A stretch of 64,000 bases of DNA from Oleispira antarctica RB-8 (lineage in GTDB: Bacteria > Pseudomonadota > Gammaproteobacteria > Pseudomonadales > Oceanobacteraceae), in contig FO203512.1 of the NCBI GenBank assembly GCA_000967895.1, positions 1,883,350-1,947,349 of the forward strand. Direction: 5' to 3'. Positions 16,358 through 29,467 of the stretch are shown piece by piece; positions within the stretch are counted from its first letter, which is position 1; each line of letters begins with the position of its first letter. The notes beneath the pieces are model-generated. The model did no database searches, was not told the origin of the DNA, and saw nothing but the letters and a program-made list of their open reading frames with translations. A program made the position numbers and the translations under genes.

Positions 16358-17398
16358 TTATCTTCCACTCGCTGCTTTAGATTCCAACAAGCCTTCTATG
16401 TACAGCATATTGACTATAACCAGTAAAACTACAGTCAATGGCGCTGCTAGTAATATGCCTGTCATACCGATCATTCCAGCCAGCATTACCTGAGCGAAAA
16501 GTGTTAGGGCTGGTGGAAGGCCTGCTATTTCAGCCTGAAGTACAGGTGTCAATACGTAGCTTTCAACGGTTTGAACAGCCATATAAAGAGCCGTAACGTA
16601 CAGAAGTGCATCAAATCCACCAATCACGCTGACCATGGCGGCAGGGATAAAAGCAATAAGAGGACCAATGTTGGGTATGAAAGAAAGAAGCGCAGCAATG
16701 ATTCCGAGTATCAGTGCAAGATCGATCCCTAGTGCCCATAAACCAATTGTCGTGAGAAGACCCACGATAATCATTGAAGCAATTTTTGCGATCAGCCAAT
16801 CTGAAAGTGCTGAGCCGCAAGAATTTAATACTTCACGAGCTCTGTGTTGATACGAAGGAGGCACCAGCATGACGGCACCGTTTACGTACCATTTGGGATT
16901 AATTGAAAGAAATAATCCTAGAAAAAGAGCAAATACAAAGCTTCCTAGGCCATTCATTGTTGATGATAAAAAACTGGAGGCTGCGTCCATGATTGTTCTT
17001 GCTTTGGGGTCATATGAGCTAAAGCTCTTTATATTGTCGGTGAGTTTTCCAACCCATTGCAGCTCAGAAGTATAACTTTGAATATAAGTGATGGCCTTAG
17101 GTATGCGTTCTGTAAGTTCATTGGCTTGTGTGGCTATCTTTGGTCCGGTATAAGCGAGAAAAAAGAAAAGCAATAAAAATGGCACGATAACCGTTATGGG
17201 TAGCCATACTTTGTTAGGAATTTTAGTTTTTTTACCTAACCACTTTGCAGAACCGCTGAATAAAACGGCAATTAAGATGCCTCCAAAGGCGGTAAGTATG
17301 ATTTTACTGTTATTGACCAGCATCCATGCAAAAAGCACAACCACCATAGCGGTGCTGGCTTGAATGAATGTGCGCTTTATCAGTAGTTTTGCATTCAT
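16358..17398 (-). CDS. AI-2E family transporter (PerM/TqsA-like), copy 1
   Basis: This 346-aa polytopic protein has the family's N-terminal helix pair, a soluble amphipathic middle (residues about 75-145) and a C-terminal helix bundle with FIPNIGPLIAFIPAA and SYVLTPVLQAEIAGLPP. ATG 17398 is preferred over the upstream frame opening because AAGGA lies six bases before it. Members include autoinducer-2 exporters and sodium/proton antiporters, so the substrate is open. A divergent paralogue lies at 17902-19077. Confidence 0.85.
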   Translation of the reverse strand: MNAKLLIKRTFIQASTAMVVVLFAWMLVNNSKIILTAFGGILIAVLFSGSAKWLGKKTKIPNKVWLPITVIVPFLLLFFFLAYTGPKIATQANELTERIPKAITYIQSYTSELQWVGKLTDNIKSFSSYDPKARTIMDAASSFLSSTMNGLGSFVFALFLGLFLSINPKWYVNGAVMLVPPSYQHRAREVLNSCGSALSDWLIAKIASMIIVGLLTTIGLWALGIDLALILGIIAALLSFIPNIGPLIAFIPAAMVSVIGGFDALLYVTALYMAVQTVESYVLTPVLQAEIAGLPPALTLFAQVMLAGMIGMTGILLAAPLTVVLLVIVNMLYIEGLLESKAASGR

Positions 17399-17635
17399 AT
17401 AATTCCTTGACGCTAATTTAGTATTTTCAAATTCTATATTATCAAACTCGTTGCTGCAAAGAGGTGTTCGCAAGGAGGGGGCAGAATGCTGTTAAGCACA
17501 ATCATTTACCAATAGATGATGTTTAGAAGGAATGAAAACGCAATTGATTAAGCGGGAAACTTGCGTCATTATAATAAGTAAAGGATGAATGAGAAGTATG
17601 AAACGTATCACTCTTCAATTAACAAAAGGATCTTT

Positions 17636-17901: not shown

Positions 17902-19077
17902 ATGGATAATGAATTAGAGACTGTCGTTATAAATCAATCAAAAGAACCTCTTATGCCGCCAAAGCGTGCAGTCTTCAGTCTGCCTATTTATGGCTTATTA
18001 ACGCTGGCGGTTCTCTATACTCTGTACTTTGCCAAGTCATTGTTAATGCCTATTCTGGTGGCGATGTTGTTTGCGTTGTTACTCAGCCCTCTGGTATCGC
18101 TATTCAAGCGTCTTTATATTCCACGCTCGCTCTCTGCTGTTTTTCTGATTGCTATGATCGGCGGACCGATGACGCTGCTCAGTATCGAATTGGCAGGGCC
18201 TGCTCAAAAATGGATGGAGCAAGTGCCCAAACTCTCGGCTCAGTTAACCAAAGAGCTTGATAATTTAAGCCAAGCTATTAGTGCTGATCCTGTGGCTGAG
18301 ATGAATAAGACCGTCTTGCCTGCAAAGAAAAAAAGCACCGATTTTTTTGGCTGGTTTAGTAGTGATGATGAGCCGATCGTTTTTGAAGAAAAAAAGGACA
18401 ATAGTGCGCTTTCGGCACGAGTGACGCAGGGCGGAATAGACATTATTATGTCGATATTGGTCGCAACGCCTATGGCCCTTGCGCAGTTTATGACATTCCT
18501 TATTTTGGTTATGTTTTTACTGATCTTTGGCCCTGGATTGTATGCAAGTTATCTGAAAATTTTGCCCTTGGAAACAAGTAATCGTCGCTCGGCTACGTTA
18601 ATAGGCAAGCTTCAAAAAGAATTATCACGCTATATTGTTACGGTAACCATTATCAATGCTGGGCTAGGAATAACTACGGCAGGTATCTTTTGGATGATGG
18701 GGGTTGATGATGCTTTGCTCTGTGGGGTATTGGTTGGTCTGCTAAATTTCGCGCCCTATTTAGGTTCTATCATGGCCTTAATAATACTCAGTTTTGCAGG
18801 TATTACTCAGTATGGCATTGAGGTAGCTGCCTTGATGCCGGCTGCCGTTTATTTTGGTATTAATATGTTGGAGGCCCAATTTATTACTCCGACTGTATTG
18901 GGGCGGCACATGCAGCTCAATCCTTTAATATTGATTTTGTGGCTGTTGATTTGGGGATGGCTCTGGGGAGCGGTAGGTGTTTTAGTCGCGGTTCCTTTAC
19001 TCGTATGTATCAAGCTTGCTGCAGCGCAGTTAAATGTTCTTAGCAAGTGGGTAGCGTTAATTGAAACGAGTTCTTAA
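17902..19077 (+). CDS. AI-2E family transporter, copy 2
   Basis: This 391-aa protein has the same architecture as the copy at 16358-17398. It differs in a longer cytoplasmic loop (residues about 125-160) rich in Lys/Asp/Glu (KKKSTDFFGWFSSDDEP). C-terminal helices include NFAPYLGSIMALIILS and EAQFITPTVLGRHMQLNP. It ends before a strong terminator. Overall it is clearly diverged from copy 1, so a recent duplication is unlikely. Confidence 0.87.
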   Translation: MDNELETVVINQSKEPLMPPKRAVFSLPIYGLLTLAVLYTLYFAKSLLMPILVAMLFALLLSPLVSLFKRLYIPRSLSAVFLIAMIGGPMTLLSIELAGPAQKWMEQVPKLSAQLTKELDNLSQAISADPVAEMNKTVLPAKKKSTDFFGWFSSDDEPIVFEEKKDNSALSARVTQGGIDIIMSILVATPMALAQFMTFLILVMFLLIFGPGLYASYLKILPLETSNRRSATLIGKLQKELSRYIVTVTIINAGLGITTAGIFWMMGVDDALLCGVLVGLLNFAPYLGSIMALIILSFAGITQYGIEVAALMPAAVYFGINMLEAQFITPTVLGRHMQLNPLILILWLLIWGWLWGAVGVLVAVPLLVCIKLAAAQLNVLSKWVALIETSS

Positions 19078-19110: not shown

Positions 19111-19150
19111 GCGCCCTCTACCAAATCCTTTGGCTGAGGGCGTTTCTTTT
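19111..19150 (+). terminator. Rho-independent terminator, convergent
   Basis: GCGCCCTC pairs with GAGGGCG, and an inner CCAAA pairs with TTTGG, followed by TTTCTTTT. It lies after the AI-2E gene and overlaps the 3' end of the carbamoyltransferase gene on the other strand. Confidence 0.8.
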
Positions 19151-20870
19151 ATTGAAAATCACTCTTTTCAAAGACCATATCTTCTATTACCAGTACATCT
19201 AGACCGCTAGTAAAGAAAACAGATAATGCATCTTCAACCGTGTGAATAATCGGTTTTCCCATAACGTTAAAACTGGTATTTATCAAGATCGGAACACCAG
19301 TAATATCGTTGAAGGCAGAGATTAGATCGTAATATTTTTCATTGGCTTCACGAGTAACACTTTGCGCACGGCCCGTTTTATCTTCGTGAACAACGCCGGG
19401 TACTTTATCCCATACGGCTTCTCTAAATTTCAAGGTTCTTTCCATGTAAGGAGAAACTTGATAATTCTCAAAATATTCATCGCCATGTTCATGAAGAATA
19501 GAAGGTGCAAAAGGTCTAAACTCTTCGCGGAATTTAACTCGAGAGTTTAAAGCATCTTTCATTTCCACCGAGCGAGGGTCAGCCAGAATAGACCGGTTGC
19601 CTAGTGAACGTGGACCAAATTCAGCGCGTCCTTGAACCCAGCCAATGATTTTTCCTTCAGATAGCAGAGTTGCAACTCGCTCATACAATGGCTTACCGCT
19701 AAGTACTTTGTGCTTTAAACCGCTGAACTTTTGGCAGCTGTTAAGTACTTCTAGGTTCATGGTTTCCCCAAGATAAGGTGTCATCTGAGCAACAGGTGGC
19801 ACTTTTGTTGGGTTGTCGTTGTAGTAGGCAAGCAAGGCTGCGCCTATTGCGTTTCCTTCGTCACCCGGTGCGGAGTAAACGTGTAGGTTTTTAAACGGTG
19901 TTTGATCTAGTATCGTTCCGTTACAGGCGGAATTAAGCGCGCAGCCGCCTGATAATATAAGATTGTCAGAGATGTTTTGGCCGTGTAGGTGTCTTAGGAT
20001 TTCGGTCATTAACTCAGTAAAAATTAACTGTCCGTTAAAGGCAATGTCAGCGGCTTCGATTGGCGAGTGACCTGGCTTAAGCTGCATTTCAAACAGTTCA
20101 TCGTAAACGTTTAATACTGAAAAGTGACGGCTTACAAAACGGTTGTCTTCGACTTCTAAGATTTTTTTCAGTTTTGAATAAATATCTTCGTTATATTTTC
20201 CATAAGGTGCGAGCCCCATTACTTTCCATTCTTCGCCTTTAATTGGATCGAATCCACATACTTTGCAGATCATACTGTAAAACATACCTAGGCTTTGCAG
20301 TGATTTTTTGATGCCGGGTAGTTTGGTTATCTTGCCGTTTTTATAGCTGTAAAACGAAGTGGATGTACTTTCACCGAAGCCATCAATAACCGCGCAAACG
20401 CCTTCATCAAATGGGCTGGTAAAGCAGGCCGTTGCCGCGTGTGTTAGGTGGTGATCACAGTTCTGAACTTCCACTTTAACATCGGGGTTTGTCATGCGGC
20501 GCTGGAATTGAAGACTTTTGCCTGAAAAGTCATATACGTTTTGTAATGATTCAATCAGGTAATAATAAACATTATAGACATAAGGGATCATTTTCTTTTT
20601 AAACAGAGGCAGTAATAAAAAGATTATCTTTAAACTAAATTGGGTCTTACCGCTCCAGGTTTTAGCGATAACCAAATCAGCATCTTTGTCTGTGTATTTT
20701 TTGAGTAATTTTTCTACGTGTATCAAATCATCGGCAAAAGTATTCCAGGTGCGTTTGTTTTGAAGATGACGTTCGGTTGACTCGGCGTATACAACTTCAC
20801 CTTCCGCATTAACAATGGCAATAGCGGGGTCATGTTGTGAGCAGGCGATGCCGACATAATTCTTTTTCAT
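19149..20870 (-). CDS. NodU/CmcH-type carbamoyltransferase
   Basis: This 573-aa protein has an N-terminal Kae1-like ATPase half (CSQHDPAIAIV; metal-site HHLTHAATACF; IDGFGES; LSGGCALNSACNG) and a C-terminal YrdC-like half with GWVQGRAEFGPRSLGNRS. Family members (NodU, CmcH, NovN, TobZ) transfer a carbamoyl group from carbamoyl phosphate through carbamoyl-AMP onto a hydroxyl group. Both halves look complete. It is the last gene of the minus-strand biosynthetic cluster, 110 bases after the KASIII-like partner and separated from it by a perfect 16-bp stem. It probably decorates the cluster product; the acceptor is unknown. Confidence 0.9.
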   Translation of the reverse strand: MKKNYVGIACSQHDPAIAIVNAEGEVVYAESTERHLQNKRTWNTFADDLIHVEKLLKKYTDKDADLVIAKTWSGKTQFSLKIIFLLLPLFKKKMIPYVYNVYYYLIESLQNVYDFSGKSLQFQRRMTNPDVKVEVQNCDHHLTHAATACFTSPFDEGVCAVIDGFGESTSTSFYSYKNGKITKLPGIKKSLQSLGMFYSMICKVCGFDPIKGEEWKVMGLAPYGKYNEDIYSKLKKILEVEDNRFVSRHFSVLNVYDELFEMQLKPGHSPIEAADIAFNGQLIFTELMTEILRHLHGQNISDNLILSGGCALNSACNGTILDQTPFKNLHVYSAPGDEGNAIGAALLAYYNDNPTKVPPVAQMTPYLGETMNLEVLNSCQKFSGLKHKVLSGKPLYERVATLLSEGKIIGWVQGRAEFGPRSLGNRSILADPRSVEMKDALNSRVKFREEFRPFAPSILHEHGDEYFENYQVSPYMERTLKFREAVWDKVPGVVHEDKTGRAQSVTREANEKYYDLISAFNDITGVPILINTSFNVMGKPIIHTVEDALSVFFTSGLDVLVIEDMVFEKSDFQ

Positions 20871-20899
20871 CAGAGTTGTCCATGATGGGGTAGTGATGT

Positions 20900-20947
20900 A
20901 ATGACGCCTATATTCAGGAAATATAATGGGAGAATATAGGCGTCATT
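20900..20947. repeat. Perfect 16-bp inverted repeat inside the biosynthetic operon
   Basis: AATGACGCCTATATTC pairs without mismatch with GAATATAGGCGTCATT across a 16-base loop. In the transcribed (minus) direction no T run follows, so it could be a processing or stability element, or an attenuator before the carbamoyltransferase gene. Confidence 0.7.
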
Positions 20948-20980
20948 CTTTATCTAGCCGTTTTGTTTGAGCGCTCGTAA

Positions 20981-21868
20981 TTAAACGGTATACGTCGCGC
21001 AAGCAGAAGTCAGACCAGCACCGGCCGCGACAAACAATACGTTGTCATTGCTGTTATAAAGGCCTTTTTCTGCCCCTAGGTGATAAGCCATGGTCAGCGC
21101 TGATGAGTGTGCGTCGCCATATTCTTTATAAAGATCCAATATAACGTCATCTTTCACATTAACGGATTGCGCTATTTTGTGGCCAAAACCTTCTTCAGCC
21201 TGAGGGGTAATAAGCTTCACTGTTTGACGATCTAGATTGTTTGCAGTGAGGTACTCTTCAGCAGACTCGATGGTAAATTCAAGCAGTTTTTCTTTATACT
21301 GCGCAGGCATATCCACGGTTAAGCGTTCTTTTGCAGGCTCAGCTAGATTGTTGAAATCCAAATAGCCTCTTACGCTATGTTCGGTAGTCGGTGAATGTTT
21401 AAAGCTGAAGTTTTGAAAGCCCTTTTGATCTTCGGTGTACTCAAGCAACATGGCAGCGCCTACTGTTGCGTAAGGGAAGCTTTCAAGGTCTTTATTCGAT
21501 GGGTGTGCATCGCCAGATACAATTAAAGCGTACTTTATTTGTCGGCTTTTAAACATCGCATCAGCGGTTTGAATGGCGTTGATGATGCCGCAGGCACTAT
21601 TCATCATATCTAAAGAAAAGGCCGCGTTGAAAGGCTGTGATTTAATATAATCAGGCTTTATGCCAAGGCCTTTCTGAGCGAACGCCGCCATGGCAGGTTC
21701 AAGCATGTTTTCGTCGCGATAAATGCCGACATTAATTAATAAATCAATGTCGTTTACATCGATGCCTGCTGCTTCAATACACTGGTGTCCTGCTGCAATT
21801 GCATTTTCATTTGAACTTTTAATCGCGTTATCAGTGCTAATGCCTGTCGCTTTAATGATTGTTCCCAT
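20981..21868 (-). CDS. KASIII-like condensing-enzyme partner with degenerate active site
   Basis: This 295-aa thiolase-fold protein keeps a Cys at position 93 (MMNSACGIINA). The catalytic His region reads LITPQAEEGFG (222-223), and the Asn motif is YGDAHSSA (D252). Two of the three KASIII residues are therefore missing. It overlaps the adjacent intact KASIII gene by one base. An intact/degenerate pair of similar sizes is seen in PqsC/PqsB, which works as a heterodimer, so a structural or substrate-gating role is the likeliest reading here. That comparison rests on size, order and motif loss and not on an alignment. Confidence 0.8.
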   Translation of the reverse strand: MGTIIKATGISTDNAIKSSNENAIAAGHQCIEAAGIDVNDIDLLINVGIYRDENMLEPAMAAFAQKGLGIKPDYIKSQPFNAAFSLDMMNSACGIINAIQTADAMFKSRQIKYALIVSGDAHPSNKDLESFPYATVGAAMLLEYTEDQKGFQNFSFKHSPTTEHSVRGYLDFNNLAEPAKERLTVDMPAQYKEKLLEFTIESAEEYLTANNLDRQTVKLITPQAEEGFGHKIAQSVNVKDDVILDLYKEYGDAHSSALTMAYHLGAEKGLYNSNDNVLFVAAGAGLTSACATYTV

Positions 21869-22905
21869 TATTTCACCGCCAAGTTGTTTATGGACATAGA
21901 TAAAAAGCCTGTTACGAAACCTGACGCTGCGGGCACCATTAATATTTTAGATTTGTCTTTCAGTTTGTTGGCTTTCAGATATTCGTAAAGCACAATGAAG
22001 TGAGAGGTTGATGAGGTATTACCGTATTTTTCGAGTACGTTTAGAGATTCTGGCTGTTCTGCTGAGAATGCTTCTTTGCCGACTTTTAGTAATCGCTCGA
22101 CAAACTTTGATCCTACTTGATGGTGAATAATGTAATCGAATTGTTCGGACTTAAAGTCTTTACCTTCTTTCGCCAGCATATCTATTTGAAAGTTTGGCCA
22201 AATTTTAAGACGCTCTTCGGTATGCATTTTGGAGTTGCTGGCATACATTGCGTAGCGGTTACTGTCATTACTTGGCTTGCCGATGGCTAAGTCAGAATAT
22301 TCCGGTGTGCTGATTAAATTAAAACAATCGATCACATCGTTATCATCAACGGCTTTATCAAGAATGACAGCTGCGCCTGCATCGCCTACGGTTAACGAAC
22401 CAAATTGTGGGTCGTAAATGTCTTTCGCTTCTAATACCGCTGTTTCTGCGATGGTTGATATGTATTCACCGCTCACAACCAAGCCGTTTTTAACAACGCC
22501 GGCTTTGATCATTGATTCCAATATATAGAGTCCGCTAAACATACCTGCACAGGCATTGGATACATCAAAAAATATGGCTTTATGCGCGCCTAATTTGTGT
22601 TTTAAGAACAGGCTCATTGGTGGTTCGTAATAACTGCAGTCGCCAACAAAGCGTGCGATTGAACAGGAGATAATAATATCTAGATCAGCCGCTTCGTATT
22701 TTGAATTTTCAAGGCAGCTGTTGGCCGCATCAATGGCCATAGTGTAGGAATCATCCTTATCCTCTTTCCATGAGCGGGTTTTAATACCGGTAATTGCCTC
22801 TAGATCAAACTGAGGAGGAATATTCATATTCGCCGTGAGCTCTTCTGTCGAGACTCTTTTGTTCGGTATATAAGCGCCGATACTTTCGAAGCGTGCCTTT
22901 GTCAT
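21868..22905 (-). CDS. 3-oxoacyl-ACP synthase III-like condensing enzyme, intact
   Basis: This 345-aa KASIII/FabH-fold protein has all three catalytic residues: C119 in SNACAGMFSG, His at 261-262 in IIHHQVGSK and N296 in YGNTSSTSH. It should carry out decarboxylative or head-to-head Claisen condensation of acyl thioesters. It is not the housekeeping fabH by context. It sits between a P450 and a degenerate KASIII-like partner in a cluster with OleC- and OleD-like genes, so it may take the OleA role. The substrate chain length is unknown. Confidence 0.88.
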   Translation of the reverse strand: MTKARFESIGAYIPNKRVSTEELTANMNIPPQFDLEAITGIKTRSWKEDKDDSYTMAIDAANSCLENSKYEAADLDIIISCSIARFVGDCSYYEPPMSLFLKHKLGAHKAIFFDVSNACAGMFSGLYILESMIKAGVVKNGLVVSGEYISTIAETAVLEAKDIYDPQFGSLTVGDAGAAVILDKAVDDNDVIDCFNLISTPEYSDLAIGKPSNDSNRYAMYASNSKMHTEERLKIWPNFQIDMLAKEGKDFKSEQFDYIIHHQVGSKFVERLLKVGKEAFSAEQPESLNVLEKYGNTSSTSHFIVLYEYLKANKLKDKSKILMVPAASGFVTGFLSMSINNLAVK

Positions 22906-23006
22906 GTGACTTTCCTTGTTACTAATAGTTATTAAGTTTTAATTGAATGTTTAAAAGCTAACTTTTATAGCGCTCTATTTTAGCCATTTATTATGTGTTT
23001 AATGGC

Positions 23007-24464
23007 TCAGAGTCTTTTTTGTAATTTCATCGTCAATCCCACGGGATTCATTGTGATCGACATTATTTCTTTCGCTTCGCCACCGTCGGGGGTATCGACA
23101 CTTTCAATGTCGAAATTTTTGAGCAGCATAACCATGGCCAATTTTATTTCTAGCATTGCTAAATAGCGCCCAGGACAAATGCGAGGCCCAGAACCAAACG
23201 GCATCGATACACGTCGAGACTGGGCTAGGTCATTGTCTTCGGTCTTCAGCCAACGTTGTGGTTTGAAGGCTTTTGGATCTGGAAAATAGTGCTCTGCTAA
23301 AGTGTCATGTCGACATACGACCCAAATCCACATGCCTTTGGGTACTGCAATGCCTGCCACTTCTGTGTCTTCTAATGCGACGAGCACATCAAACGGGCCG
23401 GTAGGCTTGAGTCTTAACGTTTCGAGAGTGCAGGCTTCAATGAACTTTAATTCATTGAGTTTTTCAGGTGTTAGGCTATCCAAATCGTCATCTAACTCAG
23501 CCAGAATACTTTGTACTTCTTGTTGGGCGCATTTCAGTGCTTCAGGGTTACGCTTCAGTAAGTAGATTAGCCACGACAAAGTGGTCGCGGTGGTTTCTTC
23601 ACCGGCCAATAGCATGGTGATCACATTGCCCGCCACGTCATTATTGTTGACGCCGCTGTCGCTTTTATCAGCGGCGACAAGCATTGATTCAAGCAGATTT
23701 TGAGGTTGCTCACGGCGCGCTGAATCACTATCGAGGCGTGCTCGTGCTTTTTCTATGAAGCCATTTATCGATTCATTCACTAGGGCGACGCTGCGATCTA
23801 ATTGGCGATCGGCAGGGGATTTGATAATGCGCCAATAAGGTACCAACGCGTTAACGCGCTTGAACAGGGTGGGCAGAATTTTATCCAGATGACGTTGAAT
23901 TTCATCATCATCTGTTTCCAAGGTATTAATGTCTGAGCCAAATGATAAACCGGCAATCGCATCCACGGTGAAGCGCATGAAATCGGCTTGCAGGTCAATG
24001 GTGGTATCCGTATCAACTGCGTTAAGCCAGCGACCTTGTAAGCGCTTAGTCACTTTTAATAAAGACGGGAAATAACTGCGCACATTATTGGCTGACAAAC
24101 TCGCCATTACCATGCGGCGTTGGTCTTTCCAGGTTTGTCCCTCTGCGGTTAAAAGACCTGATTGAAGGCCCATTTCTTCAAGTGTATCGACTAACTGTTT
24201 AGGGCGACGAAAACTATCAGGACGATCTTTTAATAAAGCGGTTTCTATTTGATGATCCGCTATTACCAGTACTTTGGTTGGCCCCAAGTGCATTTTAAAT
24301 ATCGGACCATACTGCTGCGCCCAGTCTTCAATATCTTGGTGCATGCGCGACAGTTTAATTTGCAGCGCATTACCGACTAAAGGCCAAGGGCGTGGCCCCG
24401 GCAAATCTTTAAACTGGCGTAGAGGTGGCGTGGCGGATGAGGAAGTTGCCGATTTTATTGTCAT
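23007..24464 (-). CDS. Cytochrome P450 monooxygenase
   Basis: This 485-aa soluble P450 has the PGPRPWPLVGN proline-rich N-terminus, the I-helix AGEETT (287-292), the ExxR motif ETLR (348-351) and the heme-binding FGSGPRICPG with Cys430. It has no N-terminal membrane anchor. No ferredoxin or reductase gene is nearby, so electrons must come from elsewhere. It follows the OleD-like gene with only two bases between, firmly in the operon. It probably hydroxylates or otherwise oxidises the acyl product, perhaps creating the hydroxyl that the cluster's carbamoyltransferase modifies. Confidence 0.93.
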   Translation of the reverse strand: MTIKSATSSSATPPLRQFKDLPGPRPWPLVGNALQIKLSRMHQDIEDWAQQYGPIFKMHLGPTKVLVIADHQIETALLKDRPDSFRRPKQLVDTLEEMGLQSGLLTAEGQTWKDQRRMVMASLSANNVRSYFPSLLKVTKRLQGRWLNAVDTDTTIDLQADFMRFTVDAIAGLSFGSDINTLETDDDEIQRHLDKILPTLFKRVNALVPYWRIIKSPADRQLDRSVALVNESINGFIEKARARLDSDSARREQPQNLLESMLVAADKSDSGVNNNDVAGNVITMLLAGEETTATTLSWLIYLLKRNPEALKCAQQEVQSILAELDDDLDSLTPEKLNELKFIEACTLETLRLKPTGPFDVLVALEDTEVAGIAVPKGMWIWVVCRHDTLAEHYFPDPKAFKPQRWLKTEDNDLAQSRRVSMPFGSGPRICPGRYLAMLEIKLAMVMLLKNFDIESVDTPDGGEAKEIMSITMNPVGLTMKLQKRL

Positions 24465-24466
24465 GA

Positions 24467-25492
24467 TTAACGTCCTACGAACTTATCAGTACCGCCAATA
24501 TCGTTCACCCAAGTTTTTAAACTGGCCATCCCTGTGCTTTGATTTACTTTGGGGTTGTAGTCAAAATCTTTTTTAGCCGCACTGATATCGAAGGTAGATG
24601 AGTAGGTTAATAATCCGACGGCATAGCGAGATAATGGCGCTTCCACTTTTCTGGCTAATGCAGGTATTTTCCAGATCAAATCAAATATTCCGCCGATGCG
24701 CATTAGCAGTTCAGGGCTCACGTTCTTTTTGATGGGCGGTGCGTTAAATGTTTTTCCAAGCAGACTTAAAAAATCCCAGACATTAACCACTTCATCATCG
24801 GTTATGAAATAAGCCTTGCCGCCAACGTTATCTGATTTTGCAGCTAAAATGCAGGCATCTGAGGCGTTATCAACATGACAAAGTGTCGCGTTGATATCTT
24901 TACCACCAGACATGTTTGGAAGTTTTTCTTTTAACATGGCTAGCAGTAATTTAGGGATGTAGCCCGTTGTATCGCGTGGGCCCCAAATTCCACGTGGCCT
25001 AAGTGAACAGGCGGTGAAATTTTTATCATTAGAAGACAGTACATATTGTTCTGCTAATGATTTTGTTTCCGAATATAAATTGATGTATTTTTTCGGGTAG
25101 GCATACGTTTCATTAATATTATTTTGATGGGTGAAATCAAAAAATATGCTGGGGCTACTGATAAAGATAAAGCGCTTAACACCTTGTTTTTTAGCTTCAT
25201 CAACTAAGCAGCGAGTAGACATTACATTGTCGTTATAAAACTGACTGCGGTCTCCCTGAGTCGTTACTCGAGCAGCCGAGTGGTAAATTGCATCAATACC
25301 TTTTGTTGCATCTCGCAACGAATCCATATTGGTTAAATCACCATAGGCATATTCAATAGAAGGATATTTTTTTAGGTAGTCGATGTTACTTGTCTTGCGA
25401 ACAAGTACACGGACAGAATCGCCTTGTGCAATGCATTTATCAACAATGTAACTGCCTAGAAAGCCGGTTGCCCCAGTGATTAAAACTTTCAT
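24467..25492 (-). CDS. NAD(P)-dependent 3-beta-HSD/OleD-like reductase
   Basis: This 341-aa extended SDR has the Rossmann motif GATGFLG (7-13), the active-site Tyr-Lys pair in YSETKSLAEQ and the RPRGIWGPRD segment shared with OleD and 3-beta-hydroxysteroid dehydrogenase-like proteins. OleD reduces 2-alkyl-3-ketoacids to beta-hydroxy acids, which OleC then cyclises to beta-lactones. An OleC-like gene two positions upstream supports this reading. The start overlaps the stop of the upstream gene (ATGA). Confidence 0.82.
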   Translation of the reverse strand: MKVLITGATGFLGSYIVDKCIAQGDSVRVLVRKTSNIDYLKKYPSIEYAYGDLTNMDSLRDATKGIDAIYHSAARVTTQGDRSQFYNDNVMSTRCLVDEAKKQGVKRFIFISSPSIFFDFTHQNNINETYAYPKKYINLYSETKSLAEQYVLSSNDKNFTACSLRPRGIWGPRDTTGYIPKLLLAMLKEKLPNMSGGKDINATLCHVDNASDACILAAKSDNVGGKAYFITDDEVVNVWDFLSLLGKTFNAPPIKKNVSPELLMRIGGIFDLIWKIPALARKVEAPLSRYAVGLLTYSSTFDISAAKKDFDYNPKVNQSTGMASLKTWVNDIGGTDKFVGR

Positions 25493-25818
25493 TTCTGTTC
25501 ACCTGGCTTTAGATTACCTAGCTTTTTTTCATTTAGCATCTGTCTAACGGGCTTCCACCAAGTGGCGCCAAAGGTAATGGTTAAACACACACTTTGTAAT
25601 TTTGAATATCCTGATTTTATTCCTACGGGTACCGCGATAATAAGCTGCAGTAAATGCACGGGAACACTTAAGAAAATATCGATATACCACATCCACTTGA
25701 TGTAGATATTTTCGATAGGAAAAATCAAACCATAGGCTATAAAAAGCCAGCCGAAAATTGGAATCAGCATCAACAGCTTGTCGCGAGTCTCAAATCCTTT
25801 TATGTATTGATCAATCAT
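25489..25818 (-). CDS. Small membrane protein in biosynthetic operon
   Basis: This 109-aa protein has about three hydrophobic segments (residues 14-34, 39-53 and 57-68) and a basic, polar C-terminus. I do not recognise the family. It overlaps its neighbours by four bases on both sides, so it is co-translated with the OleC- and OleD-like genes. It may anchor the enzymes or the lipid product at the inner membrane, but nothing in the sequence shows this. Confidence 0.75.
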   Translation of the reverse strand: MIDQYIKGFETRDKLLMLIPIFGWLFIAYGLIFPIENIYIKWMWYIDIFLSVPVHLLQLIIAVPVGIKSGYSKLQSVCLTITFGATWWKPVRQMLNEKKLGNLKPGEQK

Positions 25819-27479
25819 ACTGTTTGCTCCTGTGTCTGTTGTTGATGTGCCCAGATGGCGAGCTGCTCTCTGCCAATTTTGGCGTTGTGGCGAATGTCTA
25901 CGGGAAAGGCGTCGTGAAATAGAACGGTATGGATGTCTTTTGTTATCGCGTGCGCTTTGCCGATGTCTAGAATTGATTGCTTGAGAGCAGTCTTGCTTTT
26001 ATTGCTATTAGGTTCTAGCTCGATACAAATAATCGGGGTTTGGTTATTCTTTGGGCCAATGCCGACAAGGGCGCTTCTGAATACATCTGGGTGTTGATTG
26101 AAAATGCCTTCGCACTGAACGCTGAATAATGTGATATCGGTGGTGCAAACTCTGTGCTGCTTGCGGCCGCAGAACCATAGTTGTCCTTCTTCATCGAGCA
26201 GGCCAAGATCGCCCATACGGTGTCGGTTTTCATCACCATCTAAAATTTTGTTCAAGGCATTCGCTTTAGGGTTTTTGTAATAACTCTGGCTAACAATGCC
26301 ACCCTTAAGAACAATTTCACCGACGGTGCCAGTAGGCATCAGCAGGCTATCATCCCACTTATCAATCGGCGAATCGGTTATTTTAATGATCGATACTTCC
26401 ACGCTTTCTAATGGCTTGCCAATACACGTGCCTTGGCCACTTTCAGTTTTATGGCGGCAGTTAGCTTCAAGTGTTTTGAAATCAATCGAAGAAATCGGCA
26501 GTGCTTCGGTAGAGCCATACGTCGTGAGAATTGAACCGTCATCACTCAATAACTGTTGAAAGGTCTCCATGGTCGAGAGTGTTACCGGTGCGCCGCCCGC
26601 AAGTACGGTTCTCATGGTTGGCAATTTGATGCCGTGCTCAATGCCATACTTGCCAACGCGATTGAGTAGGGCAGGAGAAGCAAACATCATGGTGGCTTTA
26701 TAATGCAAGATAGGGTCAATAATGTTTCTTGGGTCTACTAGCGCAGGTTTTGTCGCATCAATTTTCGGTAATACCGCCGTGATGCCGATTAAAATATCGT
26801 AAAGCGCAAAAAGAGAGAGGGTTGCGAGATCGATATGGTCGGGGTCGTCATAATAATTAAGCTTTAATGATTGATACTCTTTATTAATCATTGCATGAGT
26901 GTATTCAACGCCTTTCGCTGGCCCAGTGCTGCCTGTGGTGAAGTTGATTAAGGCAAGTTCATCTTTATTTGTATCCGCAATCGGATAAGCATCAGGTTTT
27001 TGATTGCTCAATTTCTTAAGAGAATATCCACCCCAAAATAACCGCTTACCAACGGTGATCCATGTTTTTACTGATTTGAAGTTGCGGGCTAATAGAAGTC
27101 TGAAAATATGAGCTCTTTTGATACCAATAAAAGCTTCTGCATTCACTGCATTAAAGCAATGAAGCATTCTCTTAACCCCTAAGCCGGGATCTACAATGAC
27201 GGGAATAGCGCCCACCTTGAAGAGTGCAAATGTGATCGAAAATAAATCTGGCCCCGGTTTCACCATAAAAAGGGTTTTGGTGCCTTTTGTTATACCAGCC
27301 GATTCAAACCCGCGAGCATACTGGTCTGACTCAGTATTTAACTGGCTGTAGGTCTTATGTGCATACTTAATAGATCCATCTTTATGAGTACCAATGGGAT
27401 AAATTATGGCTTTTTTGTTTGGAAATTTAAGGGCGTTGTTCTGCAGGCAAGTAGCAATGTTTAAATTATTGGAGGGCAT
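25815..27479 (-). CDS. OleC-like AMP-dependent ligase / beta-lactone synthetase
   Basis: This 554-aa ANL-superfamily enzyme has the P-loop-like A3 motif INFTTGSTGPAKG (178-190), TTYGSTEALP as the A5 region and the late GDLGLLDEEGQLWFCGR motif. The stretch VEYTH after A3 and the overall layout resemble OleC, which activates beta-hydroxy acids and forms beta-lactones, more than ordinary acyl-CoA ligases. It is the first gene of a seven-gene minus-strand operon and overlaps the next gene by four bases. Acyl-CoA or acyl-ACP ligation is the alternative reading. Confidence 0.82.
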   Translation of the reverse strand: MPSNNLNIATCLQNNALKFPNKKAIIYPIGTHKDGSIKYAHKTYSQLNTESDQYARGFESAGITKGTKTLFMVKPGPDLFSITFALFKVGAIPVIVDPGLGVKRMLHCFNAVNAEAFIGIKRAHIFRLLLARNFKSVKTWITVGKRLFWGGYSLKKLSNQKPDAYPIADTNKDELALINFTTGSTGPAKGVEYTHAMINKEYQSLKLNYYDDPDHIDLATLSLFALYDILIGITAVLPKIDATKPALVDPRNIIDPILHYKATMMFASPALLNRVGKYGIEHGIKLPTMRTVLAGGAPVTLSTMETFQQLLSDDGSILTTYGSTEALPISSIDFKTLEANCRHKTESGQGTCIGKPLESVEVSIIKITDSPIDKWDDSLLMPTGTVGEIVLKGGIVSQSYYKNPKANALNKILDGDENRHRMGDLGLLDEEGQLWFCGRKQHRVCTTDITLFSVQCEGIFNQHPDVFRSALVGIGPKNNQTPIICIELEPNSNKSKTALKQSILDIGKAHAITKDIHTVLFHDAFPVDIRHNAKIGREQLAIWAHQQQTQEQTV

Positions 27480-27878: not shown

Positions 27879-29261
27879 TTAGGGACGCTTCTTTGAGTCG
27901 AGTGCTTCAGCAGGGATGGTTTCTTTAGCTTTAGTGTCGGCGCTTTCAATGATGTCGTGGTAATCATCATCAACATCAGCCCATTCTCGTTTTAGCTCAT
28001 TTTCGGGCACCGTTTCATTGATCTCTTCAGCGCGCGGGTCAAGGTTATAAGCTTCGGGGGTTGTCATTCCGGCGATCGCTTGGAACTCTTCATTGTCGTC
28101 GGTCATTACTGGTAATACGTGAGACTGGCGACGAATAATTAAAATAGCTGTAAAGAGGGTGAAACTAGCGCCCATAAAGATAAATAAGAACTGATGGCCA
28201 AAGAGGCTCATGAAGGCCGATGCAATGGGGGCACCCATCGCCGAGCTTAGTCCATAAGTGATTAGCATAGCACTGCCAATATCAACAAAGTCAGCACTGT
28301 CGGCGTTGTCATTAGCGTGGGCCAAGCAGATTGCATACATTGTCATGCTAAAGGCGCCCCACATAAATGCCAGTCCGGTTGAGGCTGTTCCTGCATAAAA
28401 TCCCTTAAAAGAGGCTATGAAGGTAAGGAAGGAAATGATCGCGCCGCCTAATGCGATGAAAATTAAGATGATGCGGCGGTCAAATCTATCGGAAAAGCGG
28501 CCTAATGGAATTTGAAATAATGCACCGCCAAGTACAACGGCCGACATAAAATTTGCCAGTTGGAAGGTTGTGAAACCACTGTCTTTTGCGTAAATCGGCG
28601 CTAATGCCCAAAATGAGCCAGTGATTAAGCCAGCAAAAATTGAACCGATTATGCCAATGTGAGAATGCCTCCAGACTTTAGCAAAGTCGACGCTCACTTT
28701 TTTAATGGGTGTTGGCGCCAGTGCTAAAGTGAGGGATACAGGTATCACCGAAAGCGATAAGAAAATGCCCGCTAAAGCAAAGAGTAATAGTGTATTGACG
28801 TTACCTAGATTTAATAGCTGCTGGGCAAGTGTAATCATTGCTAAGTTCAACATCGCGTAAAATGACAAAATGGTGCCGCGATTTGTTGAGTCGGCACGTT
28901 CGTTTAGCCAGCTTTCAATGATCATATAAATTCCCGCGATCATCGCCCCGATCATAAAGCGCAGAAACATCCACCCGATAAAACTTTGGCTCCAAGCAAA
29001 AAATAAGATCAGCGCCGTATAAGCAGAAGCCAGGACGGCAAATGTACGAATATGCCCCACGCGTTTTAATACGAAAGGGGTTGCCAAGCAGCCTGCGACA
29101 AAACCGACAAAATAGCTTGATCCGGTTAAACCTACTTGAAAATCAGAGAAGCCTAATAGACTGGCAGAAACAGGTAGCAGCGTCAGTAGTAAACCATGGC
29201 CCAATAGGACAAGGGCGTCAGAAATTAACAGTGCGGTGAGAGGAATAAGAGAACGGATCAT
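27879..29261 (-). CDS. MFS transporter (YcaD-like)
   Basis: This 460-aa MFS permease has 12 TM helices (LVLLGHGLLLTLLPVSA, SSYFVGFVAGCLATP, the motif-A-like GRFSDRFDRR). A hydrophilic acidic tail of about 80 residues begins at about residue 380 and ends in DSKKRP. The frame opens 61 codons earlier, but ATG 29261 is preferred: the longer form would cover a good divergent promoter (29409-29437) and leave almost no space before the next gene. The substrate is unknown. It could export the nearby cluster product, but it lies beyond a 400-base gap. Confidence 0.82.
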   Translation of the reverse strand: MIRSLIPLTALLISDALVLLGHGLLLTLLPVSASLLGFSDFQVGLTGSSYFVGFVAGCLATPFVLKRVGHIRTFAVLASAYTALILFFAWSQSFIGWMFLRFMIGAMIAGIYMIIESWLNERADSTNRGTILSFYAMLNLAMITLAQQLLNLGNVNTLLLFALAGIFLSLSVIPVSLTLALAPTPIKKVSVDFAKVWRHSHIGIIGSIFAGLITGSFWALAPIYAKDSGFTTFQLANFMSAVVLGGALFQIPLGRFSDRFDRRIILIFIALGGAIISFLTFIASFKGFYAGTASTGLAFMWGAFSMTMYAICLAHANDNADSADFVDIGSAMLITYGLSSAMGAPIASAFMSLFGHQFLFIFMGASFTLFTAILIIRRQSHVLPVMTDDNEEFQAIAGMTTPEAYNLDPRAEEINETVPENELKREWADVDDDYHDIIESADTKAKETIPAEALDSKKRP

Positions 29262-29408
29262 GGAGCACCAAAGCAGTCTGAAAAATGAAACGCTGGAATA
29301 ATAGCGTAGGGCAGGTAAGCCGAGATACAGACCCAATAACCCTATTGTATAGATATAAGAGACGTCAGAGTTAACTTTAATTCTCTCCGGTAAACTCGAC
29401 TGCAGTTC

Positions 29409-29437
29409 TTGAGCGTTAGATCTATATTGTCTACAAT
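29409..29437 (+). promoter_or_regulatory. Sigma70-type promoter for the DUF3297 gene
   Basis: TTGAGC (-35) and TACAAT (-10) are separated by exactly 17 bases. They lie about 30 bases upstream of the DUF3297 start at 29468. Confidence 0.65.
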
Positions 29438-29467
29438 AGCGCACTTTTTATTTAAGCTGGGTCAAAC

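Follow-up and report, generated by a model that had tools for sequence, protein, structure and literature searches.

A lipstatin-type gene cassette with a P450 and a carbamoyltransferase in Oleispira antarctica: a candidate pathway to a carbamoylated dialkyl beta-lactone

Oleispira antarctica is a well-known cold-water oil degrader. We analyzed a stretch of 64,000 nucleotides of strain RB-8 (assembly GCA_000967895.1, contig FO203512.1, positions 1,883,350 to 1,947,349), referred to here as the window, and found that seven genes at window positions 19149-27479 probably encode a beta-lactone pathway of the lipstatin type in which the tailoring module is a different one, as judged from their sequences. 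The minus strand carries all seven open reading frames (ORFs), with domains borne out by Pfam and NCBIfam, as a first-pass annotation of this DNA had described. Its list counted one KASIII, however, where the window has two adjacent KASIII genes. The seven genes, in the order in which they are read, are as follows.

25815..27479, minus strand: OleC-like protein, LstC/OleC-type beta-lactone synthetase, 554 aa (NCBIfam, tree, motifs)
25489..25818, minus strand: small helical, probably membrane protein, 109 aa (blastp, low-confidence model)
24467..25492, minus strand: LstD/OleD-type 2-alkyl-3-oxoalkanoate reductase of the short-chain dehydrogenase/reductase (SDR) family, 341 aa (NCBIfam, tree, motifs)
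23007..24464, minus strand: cytochrome P450, 485 aa (Pfam, motifs)
21868..22905, minus strand: LstA-like catalytic KASIII subunit, 345 aa (identity, aligned triad)
20981..21868, minus strand: LstB-like short KASIII subunit, 295 aa (conserved Glu, tree)
19149..20870, minus strand: O-carbamoyltransferase of the TobZ/NodU type, 573 aa (Pfam, structure alignment, motifs)

The oleC-like gene and the gene for the 109-aa protein overlap by 4 bases, as do the latter and the oleD-like gene, which is followed by the P450 gene after 2 bases. The long and short KASIII genes overlap by 1 base, and a gap of 110 bp separates the short KASIII from the carbamoyltransferase gene. The overlaps and tiny gaps that had been claimed for the first six genes were therefore found at most junctions, but not between the P450 and the long KASIII, which lie 101 bp apart.

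A protein search with the long KASIII identified LstA-like proteins, 43-50% identical to it, in seven Rhodococcus and Streptomyces plasmid records, and the OleC-like protein as query recovered the same seven records. Six of them were read gene by gene and contain, in this order, genes for a KASIII, a short KASIII, an OleC-like enzyme, an SDR, a nonribosomal peptide synthetase (NRPS) and a formyltransferase, with a small ORF before the SDR gene in Rhodococcus; this gene content we take to be lstABCDEF of lipstatin. Two LstA homologs of these clusters have the triad C128/H271/N305, and in one LstB homolog the glutamate is E60. That these numbers coincide with the residues reported as essential in S. 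toxytricini LstAB, C128/H271/N305 in LstA and E60 in LstB (PMC12141560), supports the reading of the plasmid clusters as lst type. In that study, the E60A substitution in LstB abolished activity (PMC12141560).

The window keeps all of the residues essential in LstAB. In the long KASIII these are C119, H262 and N296, a triad that aligns with OleA Cys143/His285/Asn315; E94 is present as well. The short KASIII lacks the N-terminal part, has lost the His and Asn and has its Cys shifted by one, but has kept E57, the aligned counterpart of OleA Glu117 and of E57-E60 in all lst-type LstB proteins. Its equivalent, reached via the canonical OleA alignment, is chain residue 97 of 3fk5, which is the usual Glu117 given a 20-residue tag, the offset being read from chain lengths. 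In a tree, the short KASIII was placed inside the LstB-type clade at 100/100. Against the PRK09258 OleA model the two KASIII proteins scored 121.6 and 76.2 bits, below the cut-off of 285, and a canonical OleA query found no further OleA relatives in the genome beyond these two. As one subunit has an intact triad and the other only the catalytic Glu, an LstAB-like heterodimer is to be expected, and the simplest reading is that the pair would catalyze a non-decarboxylative Claisen condensation of two acyl-CoAs. A PqsBC-like pair, which has similar subunit lengths, was also considered, with no tree; it was set aside because the OleA Glu117 position is kept in both window subunits, whose genes are neighbors of those for OleC and OleD.

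The OleC-like protein scored 680 bits with PRK09274 (cut-off 478) and 556 and 537 bits with the NCBIfam OleC equivalog models of the Shewanella and Xanthomonas types, below their cut-offs. It is 39-43% identical to the lipstatin-type enzymes of Streptomyces and Rhodococcus. Its phylogeny had been proposed as a check in the first-pass annotation, and it was placed in the OleC/beta-lactone synthetase family, apart from the other ligases in the tree (100/100). Within the family it grouped with lst-type enzymes at 92/89 and 89/88 in two trees. It carries the loop TTGSTGPAKG and the C-terminal motif VDIRHNAKIGR. The loop TTGSTGPAK was common to the five lst-type LstC proteins examined; the three canonical OleC proteins examined have TSGSTGxPK.

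The 109-aa protein has homologs in Streptomyces, as a C-terminal extension of the LstC-like enzymes, and in Rhodococcus, as a separate ORF that lies between lstC and lstD (blastp, 33% identity over 84 aa, 66 bits, compared with 25 bits for the best of about 500 shuffles). A low-confidence model (pLDDT 62) has helices at residues 14-32, 38-68, 73-86 and 88-101. We take this protein to be a predicted membrane anchor or partner of the LstC-like enzyme. The SDR scored 201 and 199 bits with the OleD models, below cut-off. It has the GxxGxxG and YxxxK motifs, is 41-47% identical to full-length SDRs of lst clusters and forms one clade with LstD-type proteins at 100/100.

The window thus has the LstA triad, an adjacent LstB with the Glu60 equivalent, an LstC with its small domain, and an LstD, and the set very likely corresponds to the LstA-LstB-LstC-LstD core of lipstatin clusters. 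Neither an NRPS (LstE) nor a formyltransferase (LstF) gene was found in the seven-gene cluster or in those flanking genes that were examined. This is not a lipstatin cluster proper, because these two, which define the formyl-amino-acid arm, are missing. The earlier interpretation, that a beta-lactone may be kept where OleB is lacking, is supported, but it missed the kinship to LstABCD, and with it the heterodimeric condensing enzyme, the small domain linked to LstC and the replaced NRPS/formyltransferase module.

OleB was looked for in the whole genome as well, and a canonical OleB query found no ortholog there. The best match was an alpha/beta hydrolase at genome position 3854330, about 1.9 Mb from the cluster, with 30% identity, compared with 41-53% between OleB proteins of other genomes. 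This protein scored 401 bits with the PRK00870 haloalkane dehalogenase model, over its cut-off, while a true OleB scored 137 bits. It was rejected as an OleB acting in trans. In the seven other genomes of the class sample that exceeded the OleC-family cut-off, oleB lay beside oleC in every case. A plain oleACD reading of the locus was rejected as well, on three grounds: the lack of OleB, the LstAB-type pair that serves as condensing enzyme, and the grouping of the SDR with LstD-like proteins.

The P450 (Pfam p450, 300 bits) was the sole P450 match in the genome. It has an intact heme motif (FGSGPRICPG at 423), ExxR at 348 and the I-helix motif AGEET at 287. A single P450 has been reported for O. 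antarctica RB-8 (PMC7318663), and with no other P450 in the genome, the window protein should correspond to C17420 of that study. C17420, which the genome authors presumed to act on alkanes as a hydroxylase, lacks CYP153 signatures (PMC7318663). We also found that HTCMGNRL, the CYP153 heme-region motif (PMC7318663), is absent from the window protein, in which FGSGPRICPG occupies that region.

The carbamoyltransferase (Pfam Carbam_trans_N/C, 130/231 bits) is the sole protein of the genome to pass the Pfam cut-off. It has the motifs HHLTHA, GDEGNAIG, GRAEFGPRSLGNRS, REEFRPFAPS and NTSFN, and aligns with the structures of NovN (9s2t), 7xb6 and TobZ. The nearest carbamoyltransferases in the plasmid records, at about 50% identity, belong to one polyketide synthase cluster each of Nostoc and Eleftheria and to a cluster of Planktothrix. 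In the Planktothrix cluster the enzyme is accompanied by P450s and a phytoene/squalene-synthase gene (terpenoid-like).

From these assignments we propose a pathway, every step of which is drawn from homology. The LstA-like/LstB-like heterodimer would join two fatty acyl-CoAs head to head to a 2-alkyl-3-keto acid with no loss of CO2, one acyl group being held on Cys119 of the LstA-like subunit while the alpha proton of its partner is taken by Glu57 of the LstB-like subunit. The LstD-like SDR would then reduce the ketone, and the LstC-like enzyme, which the 109-aa protein may tether to the membrane, would adenylate the acid and close the beta-lactone. With no OleB, the lactone would be the end product. 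The P450 would oxidize an alkyl chain, this enzyme and the carbamoyltransferase taking the place of the NRPS and formyltransferase, and the TobZ/NodU-type enzyme would carbamoylate a hydroxyl that comes either from the P450 or from a 3-hydroxyacyl-CoA starter. In lipstatin, the hydroxyl is carried by a 3-hydroxyacyl-CoA starter. Tailoring may precede or follow ring closure.

The predicted product is a 2,3-dialkyl beta-lactone with an O-carbamate. We are fairly confident of the beta-lactone and regard the carbamate on it as probable, a little less firmly. A retained beta-lactone that is oxidized by the P450 and carbamoylated, as had been suggested earlier, seems a fair reading. Whether the whole holds, that is, that a lipstatin-type cassette in a gammaproteobacterium makes a carbamoylated, P450-oxidized dialkyl beta-lactone and that this is the real role of the only P450 of the organism, we consider evenly balanced. 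We know of no named natural product of this description. Because the genes for the amino-acid side group are replaced by a P450 and a carbamoyltransferase, the O. antarctica product is probably a new lipstatin relative.

In the metagenome-assembled genome of an uncultured Oleispira, all seven genes recur in unchanged order and adjoin ribH, with 73-89% protein identity. For every gene the nonsynonymous divergence (dN) was 0.08-0.18 and the synonymous divergence (dS) saturated, which indicates conservation far beyond chance and purifying selection. This second Oleispira was the sole match in a scan of genome contigs with one query protein, and the LstA-like KASIII was found in two of 44 genomes of the family, both Oleispira. 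A published description of the cluster in Oleispira was not found in a literature search.

In the order, 10 of the 391 genomes searched gave a match to an LstB profile: both Oleispira, seven members of one other family and one further genome. Among 398 genomes of the phylum the profile gave a strong match in the genome of O. antarctica only. LstB counterparts are widespread according to a review (PMC12141560). In the eight non-Oleispira genomes of the order, no OleC-like gene was matched by that of the window in the stretches fetched. The seven genomes of the other family all have the KASIII pair, followed by an OleD-like gene in six (in the seventh the contig ends), and upstream, as annotated in one genome, lie an MMPL exporter and a condensation-domain protein. 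This is an unnamed related pathway. The arrangement of LstA/LstB-like pair, OleD-like protein, MMPL-type exporter and condensation-domain protein, with no OleC, was seen at about 8.3-11.4 kb of each of six stretches (L097-L101 and L103). In our limited sample, Oleispira alone was seen to combine the full core with a P450 and a carbamoyltransferase.

Partial arrangements were also observed. Two Rhodococcus plasmids carry a lone LstA/LstB-like KASIII pair near stress-protein genes, in stretches without OleC or OleD (L062, 7941-9903; L063, 7944-9915). Two stretches from the same family as the window (L034, 880-3851; L035, 13161-18401) have an OleC-like and OleD-like pair, about 34% identical, which forms its own branch and in which OleB was not detected. 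In L104 (8094-10142), an LstA-like KASIII is split across several frames beside LstB-like and partial AMP-binding genes, and that KASIII pair is probably decaying.

Around the cluster, a gene for an MFS transporter (27879-29444) lies between the oleC-like gene and ribH. It was tried as a cluster exporter and excluded because it is missing from the oleC-ribH interval of the second species. On the other side, just outside the cluster, is a divergent pair of adjacent genes for AI-2E family transporters (16358-17473 and 17902-19077).

Several points weigh against a carbamoylated, lipstatin-type beta-lactone as the product. The C17420 protein went undetected in the proteome under every treatment (PMC7318663), and the cluster may thus be silent under the conditions tested. 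Neither the regiochemistry of the P450 nor the carbamoyl acceptor can be read from sequence. The LstC grouping of the OleC-like enzyme taken alone is moderate, and its alternative placement with canonical OleC was only just rejected (p-AU 0.048). KASIII pairs with OleD but without OleC occur elsewhere, so that the pair alone is no proof of a beta-lactone. Lastly, the cluster contains no conserved transporter or self-protection gene.

Of the other explanations, the one that survives best is that the endpoint is a carbamoylated 2-alkyl-3-hydroxy acid, or an ester or polar lipid, with the OleC-like enzyme activating the acid so that it can be passed on, to a membrane lipid for instance. The membrane-like 109-aa partner would fit, and the operons with a KASIII pair, OleD, condensation-domain protein and MMPL exporter suggest that such intermediates have other fates. 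We nonetheless think this unlikely, as the ligase belongs to the OleC family, has the OleC/LstC motif VDIRHNAKIGR and has its closest relatives in lipstatin-type clusters.

The P450 might also be a primary-metabolism hydroxylase of alkanes or fatty acids that merely lies here, the carbamoyltransferase alone tailoring the lactone. This is in keeping with the presumption of its genome authors and with the raised mRNA of the alkB and P450 genes measured on tetradecane (Kube et al. 2013, in the account given by PMC7318663). That rise would fit a pathway fed by acyl-CoA but is not evidence for it. Against a bystander stand the 2 bases between the P450 and oleD-like genes, the same place in the second species, the absence of CYP153 signatures and the failure to detect the protein on alkanes (PMC7318663), and we regard this explanation as quite improbable. 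Because its place in the operon is kept in the second species, beta-lactone tailoring is a better candidate function for the P450 than alkane hydroxylation.

A decayed or chimeric cluster, with a dead short KASIII and no product, could be argued from the loss of the His, Asn and N-terminal part of that subunit and from the undetected P450 (PMC7318663), but is very unlikely: both species retain all seven frames uninterrupted, with the dN and dS values given above, and the pattern of losses is common to all LstB-type subunits, among which the E60 of LstB is essential (PMC12141560). An ordinary olefin pathway with OleB encoded elsewhere has in its favor only that the hydrolase at 3854330 is of the haloalkane dehalogenase kind, and is harder still to credit given that this protein matches PRK00870, that all seven class-sample genomes pair oleB with oleC, and that such a pathway has no role for the P450 and the carbamoyltransferase.

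Lipstatin is a Streptomyces lipase inhibitor and the parent of the drug orlistat, and lipstatin-type beta-lactones inhibit lipases and other serine hydrolases. For the product of the Oleispira cluster, too, we predict acylation of serine hydrolases, for instance of lipases or esterases. If the proposal is true, a carbamate takes the place of the formyl-amino-acid arm, which would make the arm an exchangeable module. The cluster is a concrete target for the isolation of a natural beta-lactone variant, and it offers a function that can be tested for the one P450 of an oil degrader, until now discussed as an alkane hydroxylase with no evidence at the protein level.

Among known systems, the O-carbamoyltransferases TobZ, NovN and NodU share their two-domain architecture and motifs with the window enzyme, whose acceptor is expected to be a lipid hydroxyl and not a sugar. 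The canonical oleABCD clusters of the Xanthomonas and Shewanella type have the same OleC and OleD families and a KASIII with Glu117-type catalysis; the window differs from them in having no OleB, a two-gene condensing pair in place of the homodimeric OleA, and an OleD in the LstD-like clade. Two further systems were compared by description only. The nocardiolactone cluster of Nocardia is likewise an OleB-less pathway to a dialkyl beta-lactone, in the description of which no P450 or carbamoyltransferase is mentioned. The oleACD cluster of Actinoplanes atraurantiacus, as far as it is described in PMC7064751, also lacks OleB and has, in addition to its core, a P450 and a single group-transfer enzyme, and its predicted product is an oxidized, decorated beta-lactone; the latter enzyme is a glycosyltransferase and not a carbamoyltransferase, and no LstB-like partner is named in that description. 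Closest is the lipstatin cluster lstABCDEF of Streptomyces toxytricini, with its homologs in Streptomyces and Rhodococcus, which has a KASIII pair with the same catalytic residues, an LstC with the small helical domain (fused or separate), an LstD reductase and no OleB. Compared with it, the window lies in a gammaproteobacterium, has a P450 and an O-carbamoyltransferase instead of the NRPS and formyltransferase, and has the gene order C, small domain, D, P450, A, B, carbamoyltransferase.

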